Assembly: GCF_012910905.1 (NCBI RefSeq)
Contig: NZ_WTVN01000001.1
Coordinates: 310,001 to 374,000, forward strand
Direction: 5' to 3'
Length of the DNA: 64,000 nucleotides
Origin: Aromatoleum toluvorans
GTDB lineage: Bacteria > Pseudomonadota > Gammaproteobacteria > Burkholderiales > Rhodocyclaceae
The first letter of the stretch is position 1; every line of letters begins with the position of its first letter. Of this stretch, positions 39,257 to 53,382 are shown in pieces. Below the pieces are notes generated by a model, which worked only from the letters and a program-made list of their open reading frames with translations, did no database searches and was not told where the DNA came from. A program made the position numbers and the translations under genes.

Positions 39257-39724
39257 CTACGCCGGGGCGCTGCAGTCGACCGCTTCGCGGTGCCCGAATC
39301 CGGCCGAGTTGTCGATGAAATACAGGCGCTCGGGCTCGAAGCGGTACCAGCGCACCTTTGCGAACGCCTTCACGATGGCCGCGGGGGCCTGCGCGAGCTT
39401 GCCGACGACCGGGAATTTCGCGCCGTAGAGTTCGCGCGCCCGCCTTTCCTCCTCGCCGGCGATCTCGACGGCCCGCCCTTCGGCCTGGATGCCCTTGATC
39501 TGCGGCCAGTCTGCGCAATCCTCCTGGATCGTGACGGCGATCCGGGCGTCGTGCGCAATGTTGCGGCTGTGGCGCGTGGTCGGCGCGGAGAGGAAGTACA
39601 GCCGCAAGCCGTCGTTCACGTAGAAGACCGCGGCGGCCCACACCCCGTCCTCGCCAAGCGACGCGATGGTCATCGCATGCTGCGCCTGCAGGTAGGCGAG
39701 CACTTTCGCCCGCGCTTCGCTCAT
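39257..39724 (-). CDS. Pyridoxamine-5'-phosphate-oxidase-fold protein (FMN-binding type)
   Basis: A 155-residue split-barrel protein. Blocks TIASLGEDGVWAAAVFYVNDG, RHSRNIAHDARIAVTIQED and KVRWYRFEPERLYFIDNSA match the YhbP/PNPOx-like family, which bind FMN or F420; catalytic role unknown. Its ATG overlaps the stop of the pdeR-like gene by four bases (ATGA), so it should be made along with the regulator. It converges with the MFS gene, nine bases away. Confidence 0.82.
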   Translation of the reverse strand: MSEARAKVLAYLQAQHAMTIASLGEDGVWAAAVFYVNDGLRLYFLSAPTTRHSRNIAHDARIAVTIQEDCADWPQIKGIQAEGRAVEIAGEEERRARELYGAKFPVVGKLAQAPAAIVKAFAKVRWYRFEPERLYFIDNSAGFGHREAVDCSAPA

Positions 39725-41469
39725 GCCGACCCCAGGCCGCGCGTTTCCCGCTGCGTTTCGCCGGCGGCGCCGTCGCGCGGGGCGGGCTCCTCGTGCAGGC
39801 GCTTCAGGCGATAGGCGAGCTGCGGGCGCGTGATGCCGAGCATGCGTGCCGCCCACGAGAGGTTGCCGCGAGCCTTGTCCATCGCGGCTTCGAGCAGCAT
39901 CGCCTCGACCTCGTCGAGGGTCATCGCGCCGTCGCACACGGCCTCGCACAGCGCGCGGCCGGCGTTGGGGCCGTTGATGTCGAGCTTGCCGTCGGAGTCG
40001 AGGCCCAGTTCCTGCACCTCGTCGTCGCTGCGCGACAGGAAGAGGTGCTCGATCTCGATGCGGCCGCCGTTGGGCGCGAGGATCACGCCGCGTTCGATGG
40101 TGTTCTGCAGTTCACGGATGTTGCCCGGCCACGCGTAGCCCACGAGCGCCTTCTTCGCCTTGTCGGTGAAGCCGAGCAGCTTCTTGCCGTTGATCGCGGC
40201 GTACTTCTCGAGGAAGTGCTTGGCGAGCGGCGAGATGTCGTCGCGGCGTTCGCGCAGCGCGGGGATGTCGATCTGGAAGGCGTTGAGGCGGTAGTAGAGG
40301 TCGGCGCGGAAGCGCCCTTCCTTCACGAGCTGCGCGAGACCGGCGTTGGTCGCGGCAACGAGGCGGACGTTGATCTTGCGCACCTTGTCGTCGCCGAGCC
40401 GTTCGACTTCCCCTTCCTGCAACACGCGCAGCAACTTGCTCTGCGCCGTGAGCGGCAGGTCGCCGATCTCGTCGAGGAAGAGCGTACCGCCGTCGGCGCG
40501 CTCGAAGCGACCCGGGCGCGAGACCTGCGCGCCGGTGTAGGCCCCCTTCTCGACGCCGAAAAGTTCCGACTCGACGAGATCGTGCGGGATCGCCGCGCAG
40601 TTGATCGAGACCAGCGGCTTGTCGCGGCGGTTGCTCATCTCGTGCAGCGCACGCGCGAAGAGTTCCTTGCCGACCCCGGTCTCGCCCAGCAGCAGCACGG
40701 TGATCTGGCCGGCGGCGGCCTGCTTCAGGAGCTCCAGCGCGCGACGGAAGTCGTGCGAATTGCCGATCATGTCGGCCGGCAGATTCTCCTTCTCGGCGAT
40801 CGTCGAGCGCAGCTGCACGACCTGGGTCTGCAGGTCGATGAGCTGGTCGGCGATGGGATCGGGCGCGAAGTAGCGCATGTGCTCGTCGGCGTCCTCCCAT
40901 TCCTCGATCGGCTTGCCGACGATGCGACAGCTCTCGTTGCCCATGCCGGCGCATTCGACTTCCTTGTACAGGATCTGGCGCCCCATGAAGGCCGAGGAGT
41001 AGCCGCAGGCGTAACCGATCTGCGTCCAGCACACGGGCTCGTTGTGGATGCCGAACTGTCGCCGGTGCGACTGCCCCTCCCAGGAGTTGATCCAGCGGAA
41101 TTCACAATGGAAAGTCCCTGCCTCGCGATCGACTTCGACACGGATCGGGATCACGCCGACGATGCCTTCAAGCGAGTGCAGTTGCGGGCCGGTCATGAAG
41201 GCGTCGACCTCGCTGAGTTCGGGCATGCGCGTGCGCACGAGTTCGGCGTCGCGCACCCCGGAGGCGTAGCCCATGCGCAGCAGCAGGCCGCGCGCCCGGG
41301 TCATCCCGAGCGTGTCGATCAGTTCCTTGCGCAGCGAGGCCTGGGCCTCGGCGTGCACGAGCAGCATGCGGTGCTCGTGCAGCCAGATCTGGCCGGTTTC
41401 GGCGCAGAAATGGACTCGCGAGCGCAGGTCGTCCGCCGCGACGCGCGCCTTGGAATGGGCCCTGGTCAT
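39721..41469 (-). CDS. pdeR: Sigma-54-dependent phenol-type regulator (XylR/DmpR/PdeR-like)
   Basis: A 582-residue activator. The N-terminal ~210 residues are the XylR_N plus V4R sensor (HAEAQASLRKELIDTLG, GYACGYSSAFMGR, CRIVGKPIEEW), the module that binds phenols in DmpR/PoxR. The AAA+ domain has Walker A GETGVGKE, the sigma-54 contact motif GAYTGA, and GGTLFLDEIGDLP; a Fis-type helix-turn-helix closes it (NLSWAARMLGITRPQLAYR). It faces the phenol cluster across 450 bases that hold XylR-like sites and a sigma-54 promoter. The gene name follows the Aromatoleum/Thauera phenol regulator and is an inference from context and family. Confidence 0.9.
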   Translation of the reverse strand: MTRAHSKARVAADDLRSRVHFCAETGQIWLHEHRMLLVHAEAQASLRKELIDTLGMTRARGLLLRMGYASGVRDAELVRTRMPELSEVDAFMTGPQLHSLEGIVGVIPIRVEVDREAGTFHCEFRWINSWEGQSHRRQFGIHNEPVCWTQIGYACGYSSAFMGRQILYKEVECAGMGNESCRIVGKPIEEWEDADEHMRYFAPDPIADQLIDLQTQVVQLRSTIAEKENLPADMIGNSHDFRRALELLKQAAAGQITVLLLGETGVGKELFARALHEMSNRRDKPLVSINCAAIPHDLVESELFGVEKGAYTGAQVSRPGRFERADGGTLFLDEIGDLPLTAQSKLLRVLQEGEVERLGDDKVRKINVRLVAATNAGLAQLVKEGRFRADLYYRLNAFQIDIPALRERRDDISPLAKHFLEKYAAINGKKLLGFTDKAKKALVGYAWPGNIRELQNTIERGVILAPNGGRIEIEHLFLSRSDDEVQELGLDSDGKLDINGPNAGRALCEAVCDGAMTLDEVEAMLLEAAMDKARGNLSWAARMLGITRPQLAYRLKRLHEEPAPRDGAAGETQRETRGLGSA

Positions 41470-41655: not shown

Positions 41656-41828
41656 GCGCGGGCATTGCACGTGACCGCGCATCCCGTGCGTGGCAAGCGT
41701 TTTCGCCGGTCTCTGAAAGATTTTTTCCGCAGCTGCGTCATGCGCTCGACGGCCTTGTGCCGCGGTCTCCGCCGCGCCGCACAGCACCCTCCTGGCATGC
41801 AACGTTGCTGCATTGCGTCAGCGTCTGC

Positions 41829-41844
41829 TGGCACAGCGGTTGCG
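41829..41844 (+). promoter_or_regulatory. Sigma-54 (-24/-12) promoter of the phenol cluster
   Basis: TGGCAC-AGCGG-TTGC at 41829-41843 fits the sigma-54 consensus TGGCAC-N5-TTGC exactly. Transcription would begin near 41855, leaving a leader of about 65 bases before ppsA. Confidence 0.88.
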
Positions 41845-41919
41845 ATGGATGTTCCGCAACCGGTCGCAAAACGAGTCCGGCCAAATCCAAAAAACGACAC
41901 AGCACGAGGGGACACAAAC

Positions 41920-43755
41920 ATGAAGTTTCCTGTTCCACACGACGTGAAGGGCAAGACGATCCCGGGGACCGAAGGCTGGGAGCGGATGTATCCGTACCAG
42001 TACCAGTTCGTGACCGACGACGCCGAACGCAATCAGTACGAAAAGGAGACGTTCTGGTTCTACGACGGGCTGCATTACCCGGAACCGCTCTACCCCTTCG
42101 ACACGATCTGGGATGAGGCCTGGTACCTCGCGCTGTCGCAGTTCAACAACCGCATCTTCCAGGTGCCGCCGGTGCGCGGCGTCGACCACCGCATCATCAA
42201 CGGCTACGTCTATATCTCGCCGGTGCCGGTGAAGAACCCGGACGAGATCGGCCAGCGCGTGCCCAACTTCATGGAGCGCGCCGGTTACTACTACAAGAAC
42301 TGGGACGAACTCGAGGCGAAGTGGAAGACCAAGATGGAGGGCACGATCGCCGAGCTGGAGGCGCTGCAGATCCCGCGCCTGCCGGAGGTCGAGGACCTGA
42401 AGGTGGTGACCGACGGCGTCGGCGAGTCGACGGCCTACCACCTGCTGAAAAACTACGACGACCTCATCAACCTCGGCATCCGCTGCTGGCAGTACCACTT
42501 CGAGTTCCTGAACCTGGGCTACGCCGCCTACGTGTTCTTCATGGACTTCACGCAGAAGCTGTTCCCGAGCATCCCGCTGCAGCGCGTGACGCAGATGATC
42601 TCGGGCATCGACGTGATCATGTACAAGTCCGACGACGAGCTGAAGGCGCTGGCGAAGAAGGCCGTTGCGCTGGAAGTCGATGACGTCGTGACGGCGCACC
42701 GCGAATGGGCCGACGTGAAGGCGGCGCTCGCCGGCCGGCGTCATGGCGACGAGTGGCTCGCGGCCTTCGAGAAGGCGCGCTATCCGTGGTTCAACATCTC
42801 GTCCGGCACGGGCTGGTTCCACACCGACCGCAGCTGGAACGACAACCTGAACCTGCCGCTCGACGGCATCCAGACCTACATCAACAAGCTGCGTGATGGC
42901 CAGGAGATCGACCGTCCGATGGAGGCCGTGCGCGCCGAGCGCGACCGCGTCACCGCTGAGTACCGCGACCTGATCGACAACGACGAGGACCGCAAGCAGT
43001 TCGACGAGCTGCTGGGCTGCGCCCGGACGGTTTTCCCCTATGTCGAGAACCACCTGTTCTACGTCGAGCATTGGTTCCACTCGGTGTTCTGGAACAAGAT
43101 GCGCGAAGTCGCAGCGATCATGCAGGAACACGGCCTCATCGCCGAGATCGAGGACATCTGGCTGCTGCGCCGCGACGAGATCAAGCAGGCGCTGTGGGAC
43201 ATCGTTACCGCCTGGGCAACGGGCGTGACGCCGCGCGGCACGAAGACCTGGCCGGCCGAAATCGAGTGGCGCAAGGGCGTGATGCAGAAGTTCCGCGAGT
43301 TCGCGCCGCCGCCGGCAATCGGCATCGCGCCGGAAGTGATCCAGGAGCCCTTCACGATCGTGCTGTGGGGCGTGACGAACAGCTCGCTGTCGGCGTGGGC
43401 CTCGGTGCAGGAAGTCGCCGACCCCGACAGCATCACCGAGCTGAAGGGCTTCCCGGCGAGCCCTGGCATGGTCGAAGGCACGGCGCGCGTGTGCCGCAGC
43501 GCGGAGGAGATCCGCGACCTGAAGGAAGGCGAAATCCTTGTCGCGCCGACGACCTCGCCGTCGTGGGCGCCCGCGTTCGCGAAGATCAGGGCCTGCATCA
43601 CCGACGTCGGCGGCGTGATGAGCCACGCGGCGATCGTGTGCCGCGAATACGGCATGCCGGCGGTCGTCGGCACGGGCCATTCCACACGGGTGATCAAGAC
43701 CGGCATGACGCTGCGCGTCGATGGCTCGTCCGGCTTGGTGACCATTGTCCAGTGA
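41920..43755 (+). CDS. ppsA: Phenylphosphate synthase subunit A (phosphohistidine subunit)
   Basis: A 611-residue protein matching the large subunit of Thauera phenylphosphate synthase. The N-terminal two thirds have no simple family label; the C-terminal ~90 residues are the PEP-utilising mobile domain with GGVMSHAAIVCREYGMPAV. Its histidine is residue 569, the position I recall as the phosphorylated His of the Thauera enzyme. The enzyme transfers the beta-phosphate of ATP to phenol, giving phenylphosphate, AMP and phosphate. The ATG at 41920 has GAGGGG upstream and lies about 75 bases after the sigma-54 promoter; an in-frame extension to 41665 would cross the promoter and is rejected. ppsB starts 13 bases after its stop. 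Confidence 0.94.
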   Translation: MKFPVPHDVKGKTIPGTEGWERMYPYQYQFVTDDAERNQYEKETFWFYDGLHYPEPLYPFDTIWDEAWYLALSQFNNRIFQVPPVRGVDHRIINGYVYISPVPVKNPDEIGQRVPNFMERAGYYYKNWDELEAKWKTKMEGTIAELEALQIPRLPEVEDLKVVTDGVGESTAYHLLKNYDDLINLGIRCWQYHFEFLNLGYAAYVFFMDFTQKLFPSIPLQRVTQMISGIDVIMYKSDDELKALAKKAVALEVDDVVTAHREWADVKAALAGRRHGDEWLAAFEKARYPWFNISSGTGWFHTDRSWNDNLNLPLDGIQTYINKLRDGQEIDRPMEAVRAERDRVTAEYRDLIDNDEDRKQFDELLGCARTVFPYVENHLFYVEHWFHSVFWNKMREVAAIMQEHGLIAEIEDIWLLRRDEIKQALWDIVTAWATGVTPRGTKTWPAEIEWRKGVMQKFREFAPPPAIGIAPEVIQEPFTIVLWGVTNSSLSAWASVQEVADPDSITELKGFPASPGMVEGTARVCRSAEEIRDLKEGEILVAPTTSPSWAPAFAKIRACITDVGGVMSHAAIVCREYGMPAVVGTGHSTRVIKTGMTLRVDGSSGLVTIVQ

Positions 43756-43768
43756 AGAGGGAAACAGC

Positions 43769-44896
43769 ATGGGAAGCGCTCTGATGGCTGAAGAAGTGCG
43801 CCTCGCCTCCGGCATCGACAGCCGGGGGCCCAAGGTGTGCATGTTCGAGGAATGCAACAAGGACTCCGTCGCACTCGTCGGCGGCAAGTGTTCGTCGCTC
43901 GGCGAGCTGATCAATGCCGGCGTGCGGGTGCCGCCGGGCTTCGCGGTAACGACAGCGGGCTACGCGCAGTTCATGCGCGAGGCGGGCATCCAGGACGAGG
44001 TCGATGCCCTGCTGCAGGTGCTGGACCACGACGACATGGACCGCCTCGAAGAGGCATCGCGCCAGATCCGCGAGATGATCGAGTCGCGGCCGATCTCGAT
44101 CGAGCTGGAGGACCTGATCGCCGAGGCCTACCGCAAGCTGTCCGTGCGCTGCTACCTGCCGGCCGTGCCGGTCGCGGTGCGCTCCAGCGCGACGGCCGAG
44201 GACCTGCCGGGCGCGAGCTTCGCCGGCCAGCAGGACACCTACCTGTGGATCCGCGGCATCGACGAGGTCATCCACCACATCCGCCGCTGCTTCTCCAGCC
44301 TGTACACGGCGCGCGCCATCGCCTACCGCATCCGCATGGGCTTCCCGCACGAGCAGGTGGCAATCAGCGTGGGCGTGCAGAAGATGGCGAACGCCTACAC
44401 GGCGGGGGTGATGTTCACGCTGCATCCCTCGACCGGCGACCGCTCGGTGATCGTGATCGACTCGAACTTCGGCTTCGGCGAGTCGGTGGTGTCGGGCGAG
44501 GTGACGCCGGACAACTTCGTGGTGAACAAGGTCACGCTGGACATCATCGAGCGGACGATTTCCACGAAGGAGATCTGCTACACGGCCGACCTCAAGCTGC
44601 AGCGCTCGGTCGCGATGGAGGTGCCGGCCGAGCGCCAGAACATCCAGTCGCTGATCGACGACGAGATCACCGAACTCGCGTGGATGGCCAAGAAGATCGA
44701 GAAGCACTACGGCCGTCCGATGGACATCGAGTGGGCGATCGACAAGAACCTGCCGGTCGGCGGCAACGTGTTCGTGCTGCAGGCCCGCCCCGAGACGATC
44801 TGGAGCAACAAGCAGAAGGCGCCGGCGACGACCGGGGCAACGTCGGCGATGGACTACATCGTCTCGAACCTGCTCGTGGGGAAACGGCTGACGTAG
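43769..44896 (+). CDS. ppsB: Phenylphosphate synthase subunit B (ATP-binding subunit)
   Basis: A 375-residue protein homologous to the ATP-binding part of PEP synthase: SVALVGGKCSSLGELINAGVRVPPGF, VAVRSSATAEDLPGASFAGQQDTYLW, GVMFTLHPSTGDRS and PMDIEWAIDKNLPVGG. It is known to hydrolyse ATP and phosphorylate the histidine of PpsA. Start by ATG with a GAAGAGGGA ribosome site; slightly longer in-frame forms are less likely. Its stop codon lies inside the left arm of the repeat at 44892-44999, which separates it from ppsC. Confidence 0.94.
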   Translation: MGSALMAEEVRLASGIDSRGPKVCMFEECNKDSVALVGGKCSSLGELINAGVRVPPGFAVTTAGYAQFMREAGIQDEVDALLQVLDHDDMDRLEEASRQIREMIESRPISIELEDLIAEAYRKLSVRCYLPAVPVAVRSSATAEDLPGASFAGQQDTYLWIRGIDEVIHHIRRCFSSLYTARAIAYRIRMGFPHEQVAISVGVQKMANAYTAGVMFTLHPSTGDRSVIVIDSNFGFGESVVSGEVTPDNFVVNKVTLDIIERTISTKEICYTADLKLQRSVAMEVPAERQNIQSLIDDEITELAWMAKKIEKHYGRPMDIEWAIDKNLPVGGNVFVLQARPETIWSNKQKAPATTGATSAMDYIVSNLLVGKRLT

Positions 44897-44999
44897 GGCG
44901 GATGAGCCGAAGGCCGAATCTGCCAAATGAGCCGCCGAATGTGGGCCTCAATGGCTCGACCAGCATACGGCGGGAGGCGCTTCGCTTTTCCGCCCTACG
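44892..44999. repeat. REP-like palindromic element between ppsB and ppsC
   Basis: An element of about 108 bases with terminal inverted arms CGTAGGGCGGA (44892-44902) and TCCGCCCTACG (44989-44999). The right end contains its own smaller hairpin (GGCGGGA ... TTCCGCC around CGCTTCGC). Such GTAGGGCGGA-type repeats are common between genes in related betaproteobacteria. Here it supplies the stop codon of ppsB (TAG at 44894-44896) and splits a set of genes whose products must work together. Confidence 0.7.
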
Positions 45000-45019
45000 A
45001 AATGCCAAGGAGATTTCTG

Positions 45020-45688
45020 ATGATCGTACGCAACTGGATGCAAGCCAACCCCGCCGTGCTCGGCAGCGACACGCTGCTGTCGGAAGCAAAGCGGATCCTG
45101 TCCGAAACCAACCTGCATGCGCTGCCCGTCGTCGATGACGGTCGGCTGCGCGGGCTCGTCACGCGGGCCGGCTGCCTGCGCGCGGCGCACGCGGCGATCC
45201 GCAGCCAGAGCCCGGACGAGCTGAACTACTTCTCGAACCACGTGAAGGTGAAGGACGTGATGGTGCGCAACCCCGCCACCATCGACGCCAACGACACGAT
45301 GGAGCGCTGCCTGCAGGTCGGCCAGCAGGCGGGCGTCGGACAGCTGCCGGTGATGGACGACGGCCATGTCGTCGGGATGATCTCGGCGATCGAGATGTTC
45401 TCGCTCGCTGCGCACTTCCTCGGCGCGTGGGAGCGTCGCAGCGGCGTGACGCTCGCGCCGACGCGCATCGGCCCGGGGACGATCGGCCGCATCGCCGACA
45501 TCGTCGAGGGCACCGGCGCCGAGGTGCATGCGATCTACCCGATCAGCCTGGGCCCCAAGGGCGTCGCGAGCGGCGACCAGGAGCGCAAGGTCATCGTCCG
45601 CTTCCATCACGCCGACACCGTCGAGGTCACCCGCGCGCTCGCGGCCGCGGGCTACGAAGTCATCGAATCGGTACAGGCAATGCACTGA
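45020..45688 (+). CDS. ppsC: Phenylphosphate synthase subunit C (CBS-domain activator)
   Basis: A 222-residue protein with two CBS motifs (MQANPAVLGSDTLLSEAKRIL, VKVKDVMVRNPATIDANDTMER) and a C-terminal ACT-like part (AEVHAIYPISLGPKG ... VEVTRALAAAGYEV). The third protein of Thauera phenylphosphate synthase stimulates the reaction several-fold and is of this size; the nucleotide bound by its CBS domains is not read here. A ribosome site AAGGAG precedes the ATG. It lies right after the REP-like repeat and 47 bases before ppcB. Confidence 0.9.
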   Translation: MIVRNWMQANPAVLGSDTLLSEAKRILSETNLHALPVVDDGRLRGLVTRAGCLRAAHAAIRSQSPDELNYFSNHVKVKDVMVRNPATIDANDTMERCLQVGQQAGVGQLPVMDDGHVVGMISAIEMFSLAAHFLGAWERRSGVTLAPTRIGPGTIGRIADIVEGTGAEVHAIYPISLGPKGVASGDQERKVIVRFHHADTVEVTRALAAAGYEVIESVQAMH

Positions 45689-45735: not shown

Positions 45736-47157
45736 ATGGACCTGAGGTACTTCATCAACCAGTGCGCCGAAGCCCACGAACTGAAGCGCGTCACGACCGA
45801 GGTCGACTGGAATCTGGAGCTTTCGCACGTCTCGAAGCTCACCGAGGAGAAGAAAGGCCCGGCGCTGCTGTTCGAGAGCGTGAAGGGCTACGACACACCC
45901 GTCTTCACCGGCGCCTTCGCGACCACTAAGCGGCTCGCGATCATGCTCGGCCTGCCGCACGACCTGACGCTGTGCCAGTCGGCGCAGCAGTGGATGAAGA
46001 AGACGATCACGTCCGAAGGCCTGATCAAGGCCAAGGAAGTGAAGGACGGACCGGTGCTGGAAAACGTACTCACCGGCGATAAGGTCGATCTCAACATGTT
46101 CCCGGTGCCGAAGTTCTTCCCGCTCGACGGCGGACGCTACATCGGCACGATGGTGTCGGTGGTGCTGAAGGACCCGGAAACGGGCGAGGTGAACCTCGGC
46201 ACCTACCGCATGCAGATGCTCGACGACAAGCGCTGCGGCGTGCAGATCCTGCCGGGCAAGCGCGGCGAGCGGATCATGAAGAAGTACGCCAAGATGGGCA
46301 AGAAGATGCCCGCGGCGGCAATCATCGGCTGCGATCCGCTGATCTTCATGGCCGGCACGCTGATGCACAAGGGCGCGTCCGACTACGACATCACCGGCAC
46401 GGTGCGCGGCCAGCAAGCGGAATTCCTGATGGCGCCGCTGACGGGACTGCCGGTGCCGGCGGGCGCAGAGATCGTGCTCGAAGGCGAGATCGACCCGAAC
46501 AACTTCCTGCCCGAAGGCCCGTTCGCGGAATACACCGGCTATTACACCGACGAGCTGCACAAGCCGATCCCGAAGCCGGTGCTCGAAGTGCAGCAGATCC
46601 TGCACCGCAACAACCCGATCCTGTGGGCAACCGGCCAGGGCCGTCCGGTGACCGACGTGCATATGCTGCTCGCCTTCACGCGCACGGCGACCCTATGGAC
46701 CGAGCTCGAGCAGATGCGCATCCCGGGCGTGCAGTCGGTGTGCGTGCTGCCGGAGTCGGCGGGCCGCTTCTGGACCGTGGTGTCGGTGAAGCAAGCCTAC
46801 CCGGGGCATTCGCGCCAGGTGGCCGATGCGGTGATCGGCAGCAACACCGGCAACTACGGCATGAAGGGCGTCATCACGGTCGACGAGGACATCCAGGCCG
46901 ACGACCTGCAGCGCGTGTTCTGGGCACTGTCCTGCCGCTACGACCCGATGCGCGGCACGGAACTGATCAAGCGCGGCCGCTCGACGCCGCTCGATCCTGC
47001 GCTCGACCCCGACTCCGACAAGCTCATGACGTCACGCATCCTGATGGACGCCTGCATTCCGTACGAATGGAAGCAGAAGCCGGTGGAGGCGCGCATGGAC
47101 GAGGAGACGCTGGCGAAGATCAAGGCGCGCTGGCACGAGTACGGAATCGGGATCTAA
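45736..47157 (+). CDS. ppcB: Phenylphosphate carboxylase beta-type subunit (UbiD family)
   Basis: A 473-residue UbiD-family decarboxylase/carboxylase. The catalytic glutamate block reads EGPFAEYTGYY, with an earlier prFMN/metal-binding region (LGTYRMQMLDDKRCGVQ, HKGASDYDI). The calculated size (about 53 kDa) fits the beta subunit of Thauera phenylphosphate carboxylase. That enzyme carboxylates phenylphosphate para to oxygen, giving 4-hydroxybenzoate and phosphate, with K+ and Mn2+/Mg2+. A CAAGGAGACA ribosome site precedes the ATG. ppcD follows after 15 bases. Subunit letters follow the Thauera gene order from memory. Confidence 0.9.
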   Translation: MDLRYFINQCAEAHELKRVTTEVDWNLELSHVSKLTEEKKGPALLFESVKGYDTPVFTGAFATTKRLAIMLGLPHDLTLCQSAQQWMKKTITSEGLIKAKEVKDGPVLENVLTGDKVDLNMFPVPKFFPLDGGRYIGTMVSVVLKDPETGEVNLGTYRMQMLDDKRCGVQILPGKRGERIMKKYAKMGKKMPAAAIIGCDPLIFMAGTLMHKGASDYDITGTVRGQQAEFLMAPLTGLPVPAGAEIVLEGEIDPNNFLPEGPFAEYTGYYTDELHKPIPKPVLEVQQILHRNNPILWATGQGRPVTDVHMLLAFTRTATLWTELEQMRIPGVQSVCVLPESAGRFWTVVSVKQAYPGHSRQVADAVIGSNTGNYGMKGVITVDEDIQADDLQRVFWALSCRYDPMRGTELIKRGRSTPLDPALDPDSDKLMTSRILMDACIPYEWKQKPVEARMDEETLAKIKARWHEYGIGI

Positions 47158-47172: not shown

Positions 47173-47682
47173 ATGGAAAAGGCCAAGAACATCAAGCTGG
47201 TGATCCTCGACGTCGACGGCGTCATGACCGACGGGCGCATCGTGATCAACGACGAGGGCGTCGAGTCGCGCAACTTCGACATCAAGGACGGCATGGGCGT
47301 CGTGGTGCTGCAGCTGTGCGGGGTCGAGGTCGCGATCATCACGTCGAAGAAGTCCGGCGCGGTGCGCCATCGCGCCGAGGAGCTGAAGATCAAGCGCTTC
47401 CACGAGGGCATCAAGAAGAAGACCGAGCCCTACGCGCAGATGCTGGAGGAGATGAACATCTCCGACGCCGAGGTCTGCTACGTCGGCGACGACCTGGTGG
47501 ACCTGTCGATGATGAAGCGCGTCGGTTTGCCGGTCGCGGTGGGCGATGCGGTGCCGGACGTCAAGGAAGCGGCGGCCTACGTGACGACGGCGCGCGGCGG
47601 GCACGGCGCGGTACGCGAGGTCGCGGAGCTGATCCTGAAAGCGCAGGGCAAGTGGGACGCGATGCTCTCGAAGATCCACTGA
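47173..47682 (+). CDS. ppcD: Phenylphosphate carboxylase delta subunit (HAD phosphatase)
   Basis: A 169-residue HAD-superfamily protein of the KdsC type. The nucleophile loop is ILDVDGVMTDG, with motif II in AIITSKKSG and motif IV in CYVGDDLVDLSMM. The 18-kDa delta subunit of phenylphosphate carboxylase belongs to this family and is needed for net turnover from phenylphosphate, presumably to remove the phosphate. It lies between the two UbiD-type subunit genes ppcB and ppcA. Confidence 0.9.
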   Translation: MEKAKNIKLVILDVDGVMTDGRIVINDEGVESRNFDIKDGMGVVVLQLCGVEVAIITSKKSGAVRHRAEELKIKRFHEGIKKKTEPYAQMLEEMNISDAEVCYVGDDLVDLSMMKRVGLPVAVGDAVPDVKEAAAYVTTARGGHGAVREVAELILKAQGKWDAMLSKIH

Positions 47683-47726: not shown

Positions 47727-49187
47727 GTGGGAAAGATTTCGGCACCCCGCAACAACCGTGAATTCGTCGAGGCGTGCGTCAAGTCCGGCGACGCGGTGCG
47801 CATCAAGCAGGAAGTGGATTGGGACAACGAAGCCGGTGCGATCGTGCGCCGCTGCTGCGAACTCGGCGAAGCCGCGCCCTTCATGGAAAGCATCAAGGAC
47901 TACCCCGGCTTCAGCTACTTCGGCGCGCCCTTGTCGACGTACCGGCGCATGGCGATCGCGCTGGGCATGGACCCGGCGTCGACCCTGCCGCAGATCGGCG
48001 CGGAATACCTCAAGCGCACCAACAGCGAGCCGATCGCGCCGGTCATCGTCGACAGGCGCGACGCGCCGTGCAAGGAGAACATCCTGCTCGGCGACGACGT
48101 CGACCTGTGCAAGCTGCCGGTGCCGCTGGTGCATGACGGCGACGGCGGGCGCTACGTCGGCACGTGGCACGGTGTCATCACCAAGCATCCGGTGCGCGGC
48201 GATGTGAACTGGGGCATGTACCGCCAGATGATGTGGGACGGCCGCACGATGAGCGGCGCGGTGTTCCCGTTTTCGGACCTCGGCAAGACGCTGACCGACT
48301 ACTACCTGCCGCGCGGCGAAGGCTGCCCGTTCGCGACCGCGATCGGCCTGTCGCCGCTCGCCGCGATGGCCGCGTGCGCGCCCTCGCCGATCCCCGAGCC
48401 CGAGTTGTGCGGCATGTTGTCGGGGGAAGCGGTGCGCCTCGTGAAGTGCGAGACGAACGACCTCGAAGTGCCGGCCGATGCCGAAATCATCATCGAGGGC
48501 ATGATCCTGCCCGACTACAAGGTCGAGGAAGGCCCGTTCGGCGAATACACCGGCTACCGCACCAGCCCGCGCGACTTCCGCGTGACTTTCCGCGTCGACG
48601 CGATCACCTATCGCAACAACGCGACGATGACGATCTCGAACATGGGCGTGCCGCAGGACGAAGGCCAGCTGCTGCGCTCGTTCTCGCTGGGGCTGGAGCT
48701 GGAGAAGCTCTTGAAGAGCCAGGGCATCCCGGTGACCGGCGTGTACATGCACCCGCGCTCGACGCACCACATGATGATCGTCGGCGTGAAGCCGACCTAC
48801 GCCGGCATCGCGATGCAGATCGCGCAGCTCGCCTTCGGCTCCAAGCTCGGGCCGTGGTTCCACATGGTGATGGTGGTCGACGACCAGACCGACATCTTCA
48901 ACTGGGACGAGGTCTATCACGCGTTCTGCACGCGCTGCAATCCGGAGCGCGGCATCCACGTCTTCAAGAACACGACCGGCACGGCGCTCTACCCGCACGC
49001 CACGCCGCACGACCGCAAGTACTCGATCGGCTCGCAGGTGCTGTTCGACTGCCTGTGGCCGGTCGATTGGGACAAGACCAACGACGTGCCGACGCTCGTC
49101 AGCTTCAAGAACGTCTATCCCAAGAACATCCAGGAGAAGGTCCTCAACAGCTGGGCCGATTACGGCTTCCGCGGCGCGAAGAAATAA
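47727..49187 (+). CDS. ppcA: Phenylphosphate carboxylase alpha-type subunit (UbiD family)
   Basis: A 486-residue UbiD-family protein beginning at GTG (MGKISAPRNNREF), with GAGGAG as ribosome site. The catalytic block is EEGPFGEYTGYR; the prFMN-binding region includes WGMYRQMMWDGRTM. About 54 kDa, fitting the alpha subunit. The N-terminal region is longer than in PpcB and the two share only the core. With PpcB and PpcC it makes the C-C bond-forming core that exchanges CO2 with 4-hydroxybenzoate. ppcC follows after nine bases. Confidence 0.9.
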   Translation: MGKISAPRNNREFVEACVKSGDAVRIKQEVDWDNEAGAIVRRCCELGEAAPFMESIKDYPGFSYFGAPLSTYRRMAIALGMDPASTLPQIGAEYLKRTNSEPIAPVIVDRRDAPCKENILLGDDVDLCKLPVPLVHDGDGGRYVGTWHGVITKHPVRGDVNWGMYRQMMWDGRTMSGAVFPFSDLGKTLTDYYLPRGEGCPFATAIGLSPLAAMAACAPSPIPEPELCGMLSGEAVRLVKCETNDLEVPADAEIIIEGMILPDYKVEEGPFGEYTGYRTSPRDFRVTFRVDAITYRNNATMTISNMGVPQDEGQLLRSFSLGLELEKLLKSQGIPVTGVYMHPRSTHHMMIVGVKPTYAGIAMQIAQLAFGSKLGPWFHMVMVVDDQTDIFNWDEVYHAFCTRCNPERGIHVFKNTTGTALYPHATPHDRKYSIGSQVLFDCLWPVDWDKTNDVPTLVSFKNVYPKNIQEKVLNSWADYGFRGAKK

Positions 49188-49196
49188 GGAGCGGTC

Positions 49197-49454
49197 ATGG
49201 CAAACAAGTGGGAAGTGTTCGTGATGGACCTCGCGGAACTGGCCGAGGGCAAGGAGCTGGAGCTGACGATCCGCACGCTCAACGACGGACTGCACAAGTA
49301 CACCTACCAGCGCGCCAAGGTGGAAGTGTCGAGCAAGCTCGACCAGTTCGCCGACAGCCTGCAGGTGCGGCTGGGACGCGGGCAACTGAGTGACCGGAAG
49401 TTCTCGATCCGCGTGATCGAGCGAGTGGAGCGCCTGCCGGAGCGGTATCGGTAA
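49197..49454 (+). CDS. ppcC: Phenylphosphate carboxylase gamma subunit
   Basis: An 85-residue basic protein of about 10 kDa (MANKWEVFVMDLAELAEG), matching the size and place of the gamma subunit, the small member of the core. No known catalytic motif. It starts nine bases after ppcA with AAGGAG upstream, so it should be translated with it. The identification rests on size and position, plus similarity to the Thauera protein as I recall it. Confidence 0.85.
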   Translation: MANKWEVFVMDLAELAEGKELELTIRTLNDGLHKYTYQRAKVEVSSKLDQFADSLQVRLGRGQLSDRKFSIRVIERVERLPERYR

Positions 49455-49522: not shown

Positions 49523-50869
49523 ATGGCCTACCCCGACCTGCGCAGCTTCCTCGGCGACCTCGGTGACGATCTGCTGCATGTGCGCGACGAGTTCGACCCG
49601 AAGTTCGAGATCGCCGCCGTGCTGCGCAGCCTCCCTGCGGACGCACCGGCGACGCTGTTCGAGAACGTGCGCGGCTACCCCGGTGCGCGCGTGGCCGGCA
49701 ACCTGTTCGGTGCCCGCCGCCGTGTAGCACGCGCGTTCGGCACGACCGAGGAACGCCTCGCGCAGACCTGGCTGGACAACAAGCAGCGGGCAATTGCCCC
49801 GGTGTTTGCGAAGAACGCGCCGGCTCAGGAAGTCGTGCATGAATCCCCGGACGAGCTGCTCTCGCTGCTGCCCGTCCTGACGCACCACGAGAAGGACGGC
49901 GGCCCCTTCATCACAACCGGCGTGCTTCTCTGCACCGACCCCGCGACCGGGCGGCGCGGCATGGGCATCCACCGCATGATGGTGAAGGGCGGCAAACGGC
50001 TCGGCGTGCTGCTCGCGAATCCGCCGCTGTCGCAGTTCCATGCGAATGCGGAAGCGGCGGGACGTCCGCTGGAAGTCGCGATCGCGCTCGGACTGGAGCC
50101 CGCGACGCTGCTCGCGTCCGTCGTGCGCAGCGGCCCGCAGGGGCCGGACAAGATGTCCGTCGCCGGCGGGCTGCGCGGCGAACCGGTCGAGCTGGTGCGC
50201 GCACGCAGCGTGGACGTCGAAGTCCCGGCGCGCGCCGAGATCGTCATCGAAGGCCGCATCCTGCCAGGCGTGCGCGAGGAGGAAGGCCCGTTCGGCGAGA
50301 ACACCGGCTACTACTTCACCAACGTCAGCCCGGTGATCGAAGTCACCGCGGTCACGCACCGCGACAACTTCATCTACCCCGGCCTGTGCCCGTGGTCGGG
50401 CGACGTCGACACCCTGCTCTCGCTCGCCGCCGGCACCGAGCTGCTCGGCCAGCTGCAGACGATGGTCGCGGGCGTCGTCGACCTGGACCTCGTCGGCGGA
50501 ACGGCTGGCTTCTCCGCCGCGATCGCCGTCCGGAACTGCCCGCGCCACGAGGTGCGGCGGCTGATCATGCTCGCGCTGAATCTCGACAAGCGCCTCAAGA
50601 CCGTCACCGTCGTGGATGACGACGTGAATATCCGCGATCCGCGCGAAGTCGCGTGGGCGATGGCGACGCGCTACCTGCCCGAACGCGACACCGTGCTCAT
50701 CGGCGGCGCCGAAGGCTACGTCATCGACCCCTCTTCCGCCGGCAGCATTGCCGGCTCCAAGGCCGGCTTCGTCGCGACGCGCGGCGCCGGCCTCGAATTC
50801 GACCGCATCACCCTGCCCGCCGCAGCCCTGGCGAAGGCGCAGGCCCTGCTCGCAACGCTGCACAAATAA
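49523..50869 (+). CDS. Third UbiD-family decarboxylase in the phenol cluster
   Basis: A 448-residue UbiD homologue. The catalytic block EEGPFGENTGYYF and the prFMN-site RRGMGIHRMMVKGG are present, so it should be an active prFMN enzyme or a cofactor-binding partner. It is more like ordinary UbiD/aromatic decarboxylases than PpcA or PpcB. It is not one of the four described carboxylase subunits. It starts 68 bases after ppcC and ends 13 before the UbiX-type gene, the classical ubiD-ubiX neighbourhood. It could be a spare reversible hydroxybenzoate decarboxylase or help load cofactor. Confidence 0.85.
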   Translation: MAYPDLRSFLGDLGDDLLHVRDEFDPKFEIAAVLRSLPADAPATLFENVRGYPGARVAGNLFGARRRVARAFGTTEERLAQTWLDNKQRAIAPVFAKNAPAQEVVHESPDELLSLLPVLTHHEKDGGPFITTGVLLCTDPATGRRGMGIHRMMVKGGKRLGVLLANPPLSQFHANAEAAGRPLEVAIALGLEPATLLASVVRSGPQGPDKMSVAGGLRGEPVELVRARSVDVEVPARAEIVIEGRILPGVREEEGPFGENTGYYFTNVSPVIEVTAVTHRDNFIYPGLCPWSGDVDTLLSLAAGTELLGQLQTMVAGVVDLDLVGGTAGFSAAIAVRNCPRHEVRRLIMLALNLDKRLKTVTVVDDDVNIRDPREVAWAMATRYLPERDTVLIGGAEGYVIDPSSAGSIAGSKAGFVATRGAGLEFDRITLPAAALAKAQALLATLHK

Positions 50870-50882
50870 CGGAGACAGCACC

Positions 50883-51482
50883 ATGAGAATCGTCGTCGGC
50901 ATTTCCGGAGCAAGCGGTGCGATCTACGGCATCCGCATCCTCGAAGCGCTCAAGCACGCGGGGGTCGAGACCGACCTCGTGATGTCGGATTCGGCCAAGC
51001 GCACGATCGTCTACGAGACCGACTACTCGATCAACGACGTCAAGCGGCTCGCCTCCTGCGTGCATGACAACAACGACGTCGGCGCGTCGATCGCGAGCGG
51101 CTCCTTCAAGCACGCCGGCATGATCATCGCGCCCTGCTCGATCAAGACGCTTTCCGCTGTCGCGAACTGCTTCAACACCAACCTGCTGATCCGCGCCGCC
51201 GACGTGACGCTCAAGGAGCGACGCAAGCTCGTGCTGATGCTGCGCGAGACGCCGCTGCACCTCGGCCACCTGCGCCTGATGACCCAGGCCACCGAGACCG
51301 GCGCCGTGCTGGTGCCGCCGCTGCCCGCGTTCTACCACCGGCCCAAGACCATCGACGACATCATCAACCAGTCGGTGACGAAGGTTCTCGACCAGTTCGA
51401 CCTCGACGTCGACCTCTTCGGCCGCTGGACCGGCAACGAGGAACGCGAGCACGCGAAATCGCGGCCGGAGCAGCCGGCATGA
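50883..51482 (+). CDS. UbiX-type flavin prenyltransferase
   Basis: A 199-residue UbiX/Pad1 homologue. The FMN-binding loop GISGASGAIYG is at the N-terminus, followed by IIAPCSIKTLSAV and the catalytic region RAADVTLKERRKLVLMLRETPL. Such enzymes join dimethylallyl phosphate to FMN to make prenylated FMN, the cofactor of UbiD enzymes. Three UbiD-family proteins are encoded directly upstream, so this is the likely cofactor source. The stop overlaps the start of the DUF120 gene by four bases. The C-terminus is about ten residues longer than E. coli UbiX. Confidence 0.93.
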   Translation: MRIVVGISGASGAIYGIRILEALKHAGVETDLVMSDSAKRTIVYETDYSINDVKRLASCVHDNNDVGASIASGSFKHAGMIIAPCSIKTLSAVANCFNTNLLIRAADVTLKERRKLVLMLRETPLHLGHLRLMTQATETGAVLVPPLPAFYHRPKTIDDIINQSVTKVLDQFDLDVDLFGRWTGNEEREHAKSRPEQPA

Positions 51483-51916
51483 TGACCAGCACCACCAGCC
51501 TCGAACTCGAAGGCGAAGTCGCGCCCGGCCGTGGCGAAGGCTCACGCTTCACCGCGATCGACTGGGTGATCCACGAATTCCGCAACAAACTCGGCTTCAT
51601 CCCCTGGCCAGGCACCTTCAACCTGCGCATGGGTGGAACGGCGTGGGACTGGGCGCGCGAGCGTCTGCGGGCCGCGGCCGGCATCGTGATCACACCGCGC
51701 GACGGCTTCTGCGCGGCCAAATGCTTCGGCGTGAGTATCGCCGGCCACCTCACCGGCGCCGTCGTGTTCCCGGAGATGCCCGATTACCCCGACGACAAGT
51801 TCGAGATCGTGTCGCCGCTGCCGATCCGCGAGACGCTCGGCCTGCAGGACGGCGACCTCGTGAACCTGCGCCTCGACCTCTTCCCTTCCGTCCGCGGCGA
51901 CGCGGCGGCCGCTTGA
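51479..51916 (+). CDS. DUF120 family, archaeal-type CTP-dependent riboflavin kinase-like protein
   Basis: A 145-residue protein that lines up along its whole length with the DUF120 / RibK family of archaea: EGEVAPGRGEGSRF at the start, then KLGFIPWPGTFNLRM, in which the Thr and Asn of the GTxN motif are kept, and DKFEIVSPLPIRETLGLQDGDLV at the end. The Methanocaldococcus enzyme phosphorylates riboflavin with CTP to give FMN. The ATG overlaps the ubiX stop, and a Nudix gene follows after 19 bases. I infer that it makes FMN for prenylation by the UbiX next door. Bacteria normally use the unrelated RibF, so this is an odd extra kinase. Activity is unproven. Confidence 0.85.
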   Translation: MMTSTTSLELEGEVAPGRGEGSRFTAIDWVIHEFRNKLGFIPWPGTFNLRMGGTAWDWARERLRAAAGIVITPRDGFCAAKCFGVSIAGHLTGAVVFPEMPDYPDDKFEIVSPLPIRETLGLQDGDLVNLRLDLFPSVRGDAAAA

Positions 51917-51935
51917 GCCTTCAAGGAGAACCATC

Positions 51936-52472
51936 ATGGCCCACAAGTTCTGCCCGCAATGCAGCACGCCGCTGGTCCTGGCGAAGATCCACGGCCGCGA
52001 GCGCGAGACCTGTCCGGCCTGCGGCGAGACCGTCTTCCACAAGCCTTCGCCGGTCGTGCTGGCGGTGATCGAACACGCCGAGCAGCTGGTGCTGATCCGC
52101 CGCAACCTCGACCCGCTCGCCGGCTACTGGGCACCGCCGGGAGGCTATGTCGAACTGGGCGAGTCGCTCGAGGACGCCGTCGTGCGCGAGGCGCGCGAGG
52201 AGACCGGGCTGGAGGTCGCCGTCGATGGCCTGATCGGCGTGTATTCGCAGACCGGCGCGCGCGCCGTGATCCTCGCTTTCCGCGCGCACTCGGTCGCGGG
52301 CGAGCCGGTCGCGGGCGACGACGCAGGGGAGATCGCGCTCATCGCGCCGGGACAACTGCCGATGCAGCCCGCGCCCGAGGGCGCGCCGCTGCTCGACCGC
52401 TGGTTCTACGACGTAATCCACGAAGTCACTGCGCCCTGGAAATGGGGACGCCAGACCTTGCTGAGGAAATGA
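51936..52472 (+). CDS. Nudix hydrolase with N-terminal zinc ribbon
   Basis: A 178-residue protein: a Cys4 zinc ribbon (CPQC...CPAC, residues about 6-32) followed by a Nudix domain with the complete box (GGYVELGESLEDAVV-REAREETGLEV). Nudix enzymes split nucleoside or other diphosphates linked to X. Distant from NudC because the NADH motif SQPWPFP is missing. In this place it might turn dimethylallyl diphosphate into the monophosphate used by UbiX; that is an inference from neighbours only. RBS: AAGGAG upstream of the ATG. Confidence 0.85.
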   Translation: MAHKFCPQCSTPLVLAKIHGRERETCPACGETVFHKPSPVVLAVIEHAEQLVLIRRNLDPLAGYWAPPGGYVELGESLEDAVVREAREETGLEVAVDGLIGVYSQTGARAVILAFRAHSVAGEPVAGDDAGEIALIAPGQLPMQPAPEGAPLLDRWFYDVIHEVTAPWKWGRQTLLRK

Positions 52473-52545: not shown

Positions 52546-53382
52546 ATGAAGCTGCGCTGGGCAGCCTGCCGCCCGCCGGAGGGCGAGCGTGCGCCGTCCG
52601 CGTGCACGCCGCCGGGGACCGTCGTGTATGCGATCGGCGACATCCACGGCCGTCTCGACCTGCTCGACGCGCTGCTGCAGGGCATCGCGCTGGATGCGCG
52701 CTTGCGGCCGGCGCAGCGTCGCGTGCTGGTGTATCTCGGCGATTATGTCAGCCGCGGCCCGGATTCGCGCGGCGTCGTCGATCGCGTCATCGACTGGCGC
52801 CCGGAGGGCTTCGAGGTGATCGCGCTGAAAGGCAACCACGAAGAGGTGATGCTGCGCTTTCTCGACGGCGAGCTCTTCGTCGGCGGGCACTGGATGGACT
52901 ACGGCGGGGCCGACACCCTCGCCCATTACGGCGTGGCGGTTGATGATCCGTCATGTCGCGACCCGGAAACGCTGGCGCACCTGTGTGCGCGCCTGCGCGG
53001 CAGCATCCCGCCGGCGCATCTCGCGCTTTTGCGCGGCCTCGCGCCCAGCCACCGCGAGGGTGGCTATCTCTTCGTGCACGCGGGGGTCCTCCCCGGAGTC
53101 CCGCTCGGCGAGCAGTCCGAGCGCGACTTCGTCTGGATCCGCAAGCGCTTCCTCGTTTCCGATCGCGACCACGGCGCGGTGGTCGTGCACGGCCATTGCA
53201 TTTCCGAGCAACCCGACGTGCGCCACAACCGCATCGGCATCGACACCGGTGCGTATCGCAGCGGCGTGCTCACCTGCCTGGTCCTCGACGGCACCGAGCG
53301 CAGCTTTCTGCAGACCACGACTGACTTCCGAAATGGCCCGGCCGAGGCCAGGGGCGAGGTTTGCCCTGATTCGTGCCAATGA
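52546..53382 (+). CDS. PPP-family metallophosphatase (serine/threonine phosphatase-like)
   Basis: A 278-residue protein with the three PPP motifs: GDIHGR, GDYVSRGPDS and KGNHEE, plus a later GHCISEQ histidine. The family includes bacterial serine/threonine phosphatases and the ApaH-type diadenosine-tetraphosphatases. No signal peptide. It sits in the phenol cluster, 73 bases after the Nudix gene, so it may act on a phosphorylated protein or metabolite of that pathway, but no substrate can be named. The first 25 residues are not family-like and the start may lie slightly later. Confidence 0.8.
   Translation: MKLRWAACRPPEGERAPSACTPPGTVVYAIGDIHGRLDLLDALLQGIALDARLRPAQRRVLVYLGDYVSRGPDSRGVVDRVIDWRPEGFEVIALKGNHEEVMLRFLDGELFVGGHWMDYGGADTLAHYGVAVDDPSCRDPETLAHLCARLRGSIPPAHLALLRGLAPSHREGGYLFVHAGVLPGVPLGEQSERDFVWIRKRFLVSDRDHGAVVVHGHCISEQPDVRHNRIGIDTGAYRSGVLTCLVLDGTERSFLQTTTDFRNGPAEARGEVCPDSCQ

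Follow-up and report, generated by a model that had tools for sequence, protein, structure and literature searches.

A DUF120 protein of the riboflavin kinase fold paired with UbiX suggests a dedicated prenylated-FMN supply line in phenol-degrading bacteria

UbiX joins reduced FMN and dimethylallyl phosphate to form prenylated FMN, the supply of which limits the activity of many UbiD enzymes expressed heterologously. Bacterial RibF (PF01687) differs in fold from DUF120, depends on ATP and is bifunctional, leading on to FAD. The plant protein AtFMN/FHy joins a HAD phosphatase domain with a riboflavin kinase, which belongs to the RibF/RFK type and not to DUF120. The DUF120 family (PF01982), with the archaeal proteins RibK and RbkR (MJ0056, TA1064), is established as CTP-dependent riboflavin kinase in archaea, as stated in the available part of PMC8305020, which cites Ammelburg 2007. 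The described phenol cluster of Thauera aromatica contains pps-ppc genes, and its ORF8 is UbiX; the available part of PMC6114531 gives no function for ORF9.

The window analysed here is a stretch of 64,000 nucleotides from Aromatoleum toluvorans, whose genome measures 4.8 Mb. Profile searches identified in this window a complete anaerobic pps-ppc phenol cluster, closed by ubiX, a DUF120 gene and a Nudix gene. A minus-strand XylR-type activator stands at its head, followed by the phenylphosphate synthase genes, ppcB, ppcD, ppcA, ppcC, a third UbiD gene and the three closing genes:

39721-41469, minus strand: XylR/MobR-type sigma-54 activator, PheR-like (PF06505, PF02830, PF00158; MobR 625 bits, below the cut-off of 999)
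41665-43755 (start uncertain), plus strand: PEP-utilising enzyme, phenylphosphate synthase subunit (PF00391; PRK08296.1-4, 1292 bits)
43745-44896 (start uncertain), plus strand: PEP synthase N-terminal-like protein, phenylphosphate synthase subunit (PRK06464, E 6e-124, profile positions 6-366, below the full-length cut-off)
44927-45688, plus strand: CBS-domain protein, phenylphosphate synthase gamma-like (PF00571 twice; same position as the CBS gene of pAZKH)
45736-47157, plus strand: ppcB, phenylphosphate carboxylase beta (TIGR02724, 1103 bits; start by analogy with pAZKH)
47173-47682, plus strand: ppcD, phenylphosphate carboxylase delta, HAD family (TIGR02726, 371 bits, cut-off 282)
47727-49187, plus strand: ppcA, phenylphosphate carboxylase alpha (TIGR02723, 1150 bits; start by analogy with pAZKH)
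49197-49454, plus strand: ppcC, phenylphosphate carboxylase gamma (TIGR02725, 139 bits, cut-off 135.55; PF09662)
49523-50869, plus strand: third UbiD-family protein (TIGR00148, 303 bits, above the cut-off of 244.85; start by analogy with pAZKH)
50883-51482, plus strand: ubiX, flavin prenyltransferase (TIGR00421, E 3.1e-74; PRK06029, E 1.5e-78; PF02441)
51479-51916, plus strand: DUF120, putative RibK-like riboflavin kinase (PF01982, E 3.1e-29)
51936-52472, plus strand: Nudix hydrolase with N-terminal zinc ribbon (PF00293, E 3.6e-17; nearest PDB entries 2yyh and 3cng)

All four subunits of PpcABCD exceeded their equivalog cut-offs (TIGR02723, TIGR02724, TIGR02725, TIGR02726), and UbiX scored 248.6 against the TIGR00421 cut-off of 108.9. 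The third UbiD protein scored far under the PpcA and PpcB equivalog cut-offs. The reading frames and coordinates of the ubiX, DUF120 and Nudix trio were confirmed, as were the three UbiD genes upstream of ubiX, among which ppcD and ppcC are interspersed. The predicted 4-base overlap of ubiX and DUF120 is present and reads ATGA, and a gap of 19 bases separates DUF120 from the Nudix gene.

The gene order was identical to that annotated for the cluster of plasmid pAZKH from Azoarcus sp. KH32C; RefSeq calls the DUF120 gene there 'DUF120 domain-containing protein', a domain name only. By position only, ORF9 and ORF10 of T. aromatica should be DUF120 and Nudix. Near relatives carrying names were Aromatoleum species and Azoarcus sp. 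Aa7, among the matches listed by a contig scan. PF01982 was found in 17 of 17 genomes of the genus, one of them as a fragment at a contig end. The third UbiD, ubiX, DUF120 and Nudix genes are under purifying selection, with dN/dS values of 0.08, 0.04, 0.15 and 0.14, respectively (ratio of means, 45 pairs from 10 genus loci). Because of this presence in every genus genome and these low ratios, the arrangement goes beyond chance. One genus genome (G004) carries three DUF120 copies (L013, L018 and L019), and L018 follows a ppcA-ppcC pair with no UbiX between. A phage source for DUF120 is not supported, as no relative appeared in phage records and none was confirmed in viral contigs (202 pattern stretches); no PADLOC family matched.

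The original prediction had looked to other genomes for DUF120 accompanying ubiX, and this co-occurrence was found. Within the family of the window genome, PF01982 occurred in 28 of 249 genomes and ppcA (TIGR02723) in 23 of 249; all 23 ppcA genomes carried PF01982, against 5 of the 226 others (Fisher p 6e-28, uncorrected for kinship). One of these five, G053, carries part of ppcA where a contig ends (L064), and the remaining four belong to one genus and carry DUF120-HAD fusions. PF01982 is rare beyond this family: it was detected in 7 of 321 genomes of the class sample (6 over the cut-off) and in 2 of 349 genomes of the phylum sample, the window genome included in both. At the level of loci, UbiX and DUF120 were separated by no more than 2.5 kb in 50 of the 73 bacterial loci collected (window included; the flank is only 1.5 kb in many loci) and in 0 of 9 archaeal loci, and the two genes were on the same strand in 48 of the 50 linked bacterial loci. 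The count of 73 left out duplicates, L089-L113, L147 onward, the contig-end fragment L017 and the weak matches L044-L046; L033 is absent from it although UbiX adjoins DUF120 there, and L080, whose contig ends 108 bases past DUF120, was scored as lacking UbiX. The contig scan supplied 42 loci, at least that many, among the matches listed, and these are mostly from MAGs. No UbiX lay within 2.5 kb in 23 of the 73 bacterial loci, 13 of which are HAD fusions.

Since the locus collection leans towards close relatives, two phylum samples carry greater weight. In G915's phylum (NCBI label Chloroflexi), DUF120 was present in 8 of 221 genomes, with UbiX near in 3 of the 8; in the phylum of the Binatia genome G917 it was present in 8 of 118, with UbiX near in 4 of the 8. 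Leaving aside the two centre genomes, which had been picked for UbiX, UbiX lay within 2.5 kb in 5 of 14 DUF120 genomes of both phyla, as compared with about 0.002 per genome by chance. In G1158 and G1249, UbiX was found about 8 and about 11 kb from DUF120. DUF120 was carried by four of the five genomes of G917's phylum with ppcA over the cut-off, the exception being G1161. The phyla with UbiX-adjacent DUF120 thus include Chloroflexota, Binatia and a Nitrospinota-labelled phylum. Collectively, these counts describe a conserved pairing of two known families that extends past the single phenol cluster. The Binatia-type pair was seen in reversed order, DUF120-UbiX, in L077, L079 and L081; L077 and L081 have XdhC upstream of it and two PNPOx-like proteins downstream, and L079 has a CoxE-like gene upstream.

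In one locus (L070, from the Chloroflexi-labelled genome G915), UbiX and DUF120 form a single ORF of 344 aa; the stretch was identical in a second collection, but both derive from one assembly, and a frameshift error is possible. Riboflavin-synthesis genes also appeared beside the pair. Both of the two genomes examined from the phylum of G913 (NCBI label Nitrospinota) carry RibBA, UbiX and DUF120 in this order on one strand, with a RibBA-UbiX gap of 13 bases in G1255 by the starts called here. A further locus (L130, genome G964 of G915's phylum) brings RibBA and UbiX together with a HAD-DUF120 fusion inside 4 kb, not all on the same strand. This RibBA context is telling but rare: it was found near DUF120 in 2 of 146 loci searched, a set with duplicates and loci from other queries, plus L156, which was fetched apart. 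Among archaea, the RibK gene overlaps ribB in Natrinema, and ribB was also detected at L075 (E 7e-16). Fusions of HAD and DUF120 were found in both orders in several bacterial groups (L034, L035, L037, L039, L041, L042, L043, L066, L071-L074, L115/L130, L127 and L128), by Pfam for L066 only and by motif and by eye for the others. Such a fusion could join the kinase to a phosphatase acting on FMN or in the riboflavin pathway. It resembles the arrangement of AtFMN/FHy, from which it differs in that its kinase-like part is DUF120 and not of the RibF/RFK type.

The window DUF120 protein matched PF01982 with 101.8 bits (cut-off 25), and its relatives in the PDB by sequence were MJ0056 and the Thermoplasma riboflavin kinase (E 4.8e-11 to 1.9e-10). 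An AlphaFold model (mean pLDDT 91.3) was compared with solved structures using Foldseek, giving E 1.5e-10 and a TM-score of 0.80 to 5trd, and TM-scores of 0.69-0.72 to MJ0056 entries (query-normalised). At E < 0.001 the model matched archaeal riboflavin kinases only (7 chains), RbkR with CTP ranking top, followed by MJ0056 forms that include the CDP-bound and the CDP- and FMN-bound ones. The model thus has the cradle-loop barrel fold of MJ0056 and RbkR, and the window protein lacks the HTH domain of RbkR.

The GTxN motif reported in the original prediction is present (G45, T46, F47 and N48 in window numbering). We aligned 47 sequences, comprising 8 archaeal, 27 UbiX-linked and 12 HAD-fused ones; bacterial DUF120 proteins neither UbiX-linked nor HAD-fused were left out. 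G45, T46, N48, P98 and E109 were invariant in 47 of 47. Four further positions, R75, T76, G78 and R100, were invariant in the 8 archaeal rows and replaced in the bacterial rows. Position 78, Gly in the 8 archaeal rows, was Cys in 39 of 39 aligned bacterial rows, UbiX-linked or HAD-fused, and K107 is mostly new in bacteria (25 of 27 UbiX-linked rows). Bacterial forms therefore share with archaeal RibK/RbkR the fold, GTxN, the invariant Glu and, in some genomes, riboflavin-synthesis neighbours; unlike them, they carry Cys78, are without R75, T76, G78 and R100, and are often paired with UbiX. In a tree, 50 of 52 bacterial rows fell in one branch (support 98/88) apart from 9 archaeal outgroup rows, with the bootstrap not fully settled and 24 of 58 inner branches open. 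The archaeal RibK equivalog cut-offs were not reached by the window protein (NF040694, 63.3 against 168; NF010762, 88.1 against 279). To judge from these residues, riboflavin kinase chemistry is probably kept in bacterial DUF120, and the phosphate donor may differ. The CTP dependence known from archaea cannot be assumed here, because the four archaeal-invariant residues are replaced and the archaeal equivalogs score far below cut-off. C78 and C82 of the window protein form a GFCxAKC motif. Nine other bacterial DUF120 proteins, neither UbiX-linked nor HAD-fused, were inspected, and L121 is without the Cys motif. Two weak and divergent DUF120 matches were also noted: L044 precedes an in-frame glycosyltransferase-looking stretch (by eye), and L046 is a short protein.

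DUF120 as a stand-in for a missing RibF was considered and rejected, since PF01687 was present, as a separate gene, in 33 of 33 hand-chosen DUF120 genomes. A DUF120 kinase would therefore be extra, or redundant, for FMN. UbiX was found in 31 of 31 DUF120 genomes tested, also hand-chosen, and in 16 of the 31 the sole UbiX was the copy within 2.5 kb of DUF120. A second UbiX of the window genome lies elsewhere, on contig C41.

The fusion, the operons and the co-occurrence are most simply explained by a kinase that produces FMN at UbiX. We consider it likely, and the best reading available, that bacterial DUF120 of the RibK fold makes FMN for UbiX. DUF120 would be a stand-alone riboflavin kinase, a bacterial subfamily of the RibK fold, converting riboflavin to FMN next to UbiX, whose product, prenylated FMN, would go to the UbiD-type subunits of phenylphosphate carboxylase. 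The reaction would be the one catalysed by RibF, which the DUF120 kinase would supplement and not replace. RibF would hand FMN on to FAD, while the pool made by a monofunctional kinase would not be passed straight to FAD; strong induction of the UbiD-type subunits may call for such a separate FMN supply. We infer the substrate, the phosphate donor and the hand-over of FMN to UbiX from this context. The earlier proposal of a RibK-like protein feeding UbiX is well supported by its genomic setting, with co-occurrence, neighbouring genes across several phyla, a single fusion and RibBA operons, and by the predicted fold and the motif; its local FMN supply would be redundant with RibF.

Several observations count against this reading. 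FMN does not depend on DUF120 in the 33 genomes with RibF, 23 bacterial loci have no UbiX near, G1161 has ppcA without PF01982, RibBA is rare, the four residues invariant in archaea are replaced, and the single fusion may stem from a frameshift error. According to the available part of PMC6114531, the phenol cluster of Desulfatiglans anilini lacks relatives of ORF9 and ORF10 from T. aromatica, and a two-subunit UbiD-like carboxylase of this organism was reported, in the available part of PMC7500099, to be active with plain FMN.

In a rival reading, DUF120 is a kinase that keeps the fold but has a different substrate or phosphate donor, still partnered with UbiX; it might phosphorylate prenol to dimethylallyl phosphate or act on already prenylated riboflavin. 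Of the two phosphorylated substrates that UbiX needs, FMN already comes from RibF, and the replacement of R75, T76, G78 and R100 together with the invariant Cys78 would suit an altered specificity. We nevertheless regard such a kinase as unlikely: RibBA accompanies UbiX-DUF120 in three genomes of two phyla, which points to riboflavin, and the GTxN and Glu positions are unchanged. The same lost positions could indicate a non-catalytic protein, a flavin-binding chaperone or maturation factor for prenylated FMN comparable to LpdD and PhdC, which belong to other families; such helpers are described for UbiD systems in the available parts of PMC10865409 and PMC13040415. A mere chaperone would hardly need the five invariant positions, including GTxN and Glu109, that are kept in all 47 sequences, and we judge this role very improbable.

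DUF120 might also be a passive passenger, if the phenol cluster spreads as a single unit. The whole cluster is carried by the 738 kb plasmid pAZKH of Azoarcus sp. KH32C, which is typed as mobilizable, and most of the linked loci collected represent one cluster type. Counting against this explanation, UbiX-DUF120 pairs were also found in retrieved stretches that hold no ppc genes, namely in the Nitrospinota-labelled phylum, in Binatia and in Chloroflexota, and in both gene orders; the dN/dS of DUF120 (0.15) also speaks against a passenger, and we give the idea almost no credence.

FMN supply to UbiX by a DUF120 kinase therefore remains our preferred reading, and the adjacency and fusion of DUF120 with UbiX suggest a dedicated prenylated-FMN supply line in phenol-degrading bacteria. 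The locus resembles known UbiX/UbiD systems in holding UbiX and UbiD-family carboxylases in one cluster, and differs from them by an added putative flavin kinase beside or fused to UbiX, which is not named in the available parts of the literature examined. The original prediction took the module to be undescribed; the papers listed in literature searches, read by title and start of abstract and with subscription journals mostly outside the coverage, contained no such description, no link between a riboflavin kinase and UbiX and no treatment of bacterial DUF120. The module is a new combination of known families. With a slight lean in favour, we propose that several bacterial phyla share it: a cysteine-bearing subfamily of the archaeal riboflavin kinase fold would be a standing partner of UbiX, sometimes with RibBA or a HAD phosphatase, so that the cofactor would have its own line starting at riboflavin, separate from the route through RibF to FAD and perhaps relying on a different phosphate donor. 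If this is true, a phenol operon gene named in RefSeq by its domain only would gain a role and bacterial DUF120 a function, and UbiX would have a natural kinase partner ready to be co-expressed with it. It raises the question of what a cell that already has RibF gains from another riboflavin kinase serving a single cofactor.

The last gene of the trio had been predicted to be a zinc-ribbon Nudix hydrolase making dimethylallyl phosphate from the diphosphate (DMAPP). Its Nudix identity was borne out (PF00293, 63.1 bits against a cut-off of 21.1), while the ribbon profile PF14803 reached 22.1 bits, under its cut-off of 25.6, yet two CxxC pairs are visible. No NCBIfam equivalog was over cut-off for this protein; the best-scoring ones, of the NAD(+) diphosphatase and MutT types, stayed well short of theirs, and the nearest solved structures, 2yyh and 3cng, carry names other than DMAPP hydrolase. 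Among loci with at least 700 bases downstream, split by phylum from the locus table, a Nudix gene stood beside UbiX-DUF120 in 33 of 37 Pseudomonadota loci as against 0 of 10 others. A Nudix protein as cross-phylum partner of UbiX-DUF120 was accordingly rejected, and the gene belongs to the habit of the phenol cluster and not to the wider pair. The proposed reaction is chemically plausible, as E. coli NudJ is stated to make dimethylallyl phosphate from DMAPP in the available part of PMC12359138, which cites other work for it. It is no more than plausible for this gene because Nudix joins the pair in Pseudomonadota clusters only; the family is, besides, promiscuous. We therefore treat the gene as a possible but rather doubtful source of dimethylallyl phosphate. 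By a narrow preference, we take it not to be a DMAPP hydrolase but to release FMN from FAD or to clean up nucleotides. The NAD(+) diphosphatase and MutT types as its best, if distant, relatives and its absence beside the pair in all 10 loci outside Pseudomonadota agree with this, whereas activity on DMAPP is not rare in the superfamily, being stated for 4 of 11 E. coli Nudix enzymes in the same part of PMC12359138. The Nudix gene is followed in the window by a calcineurin-like phosphoesterase gene (52546-53382), relatives of which lie downstream in many clusters of the genome's family.
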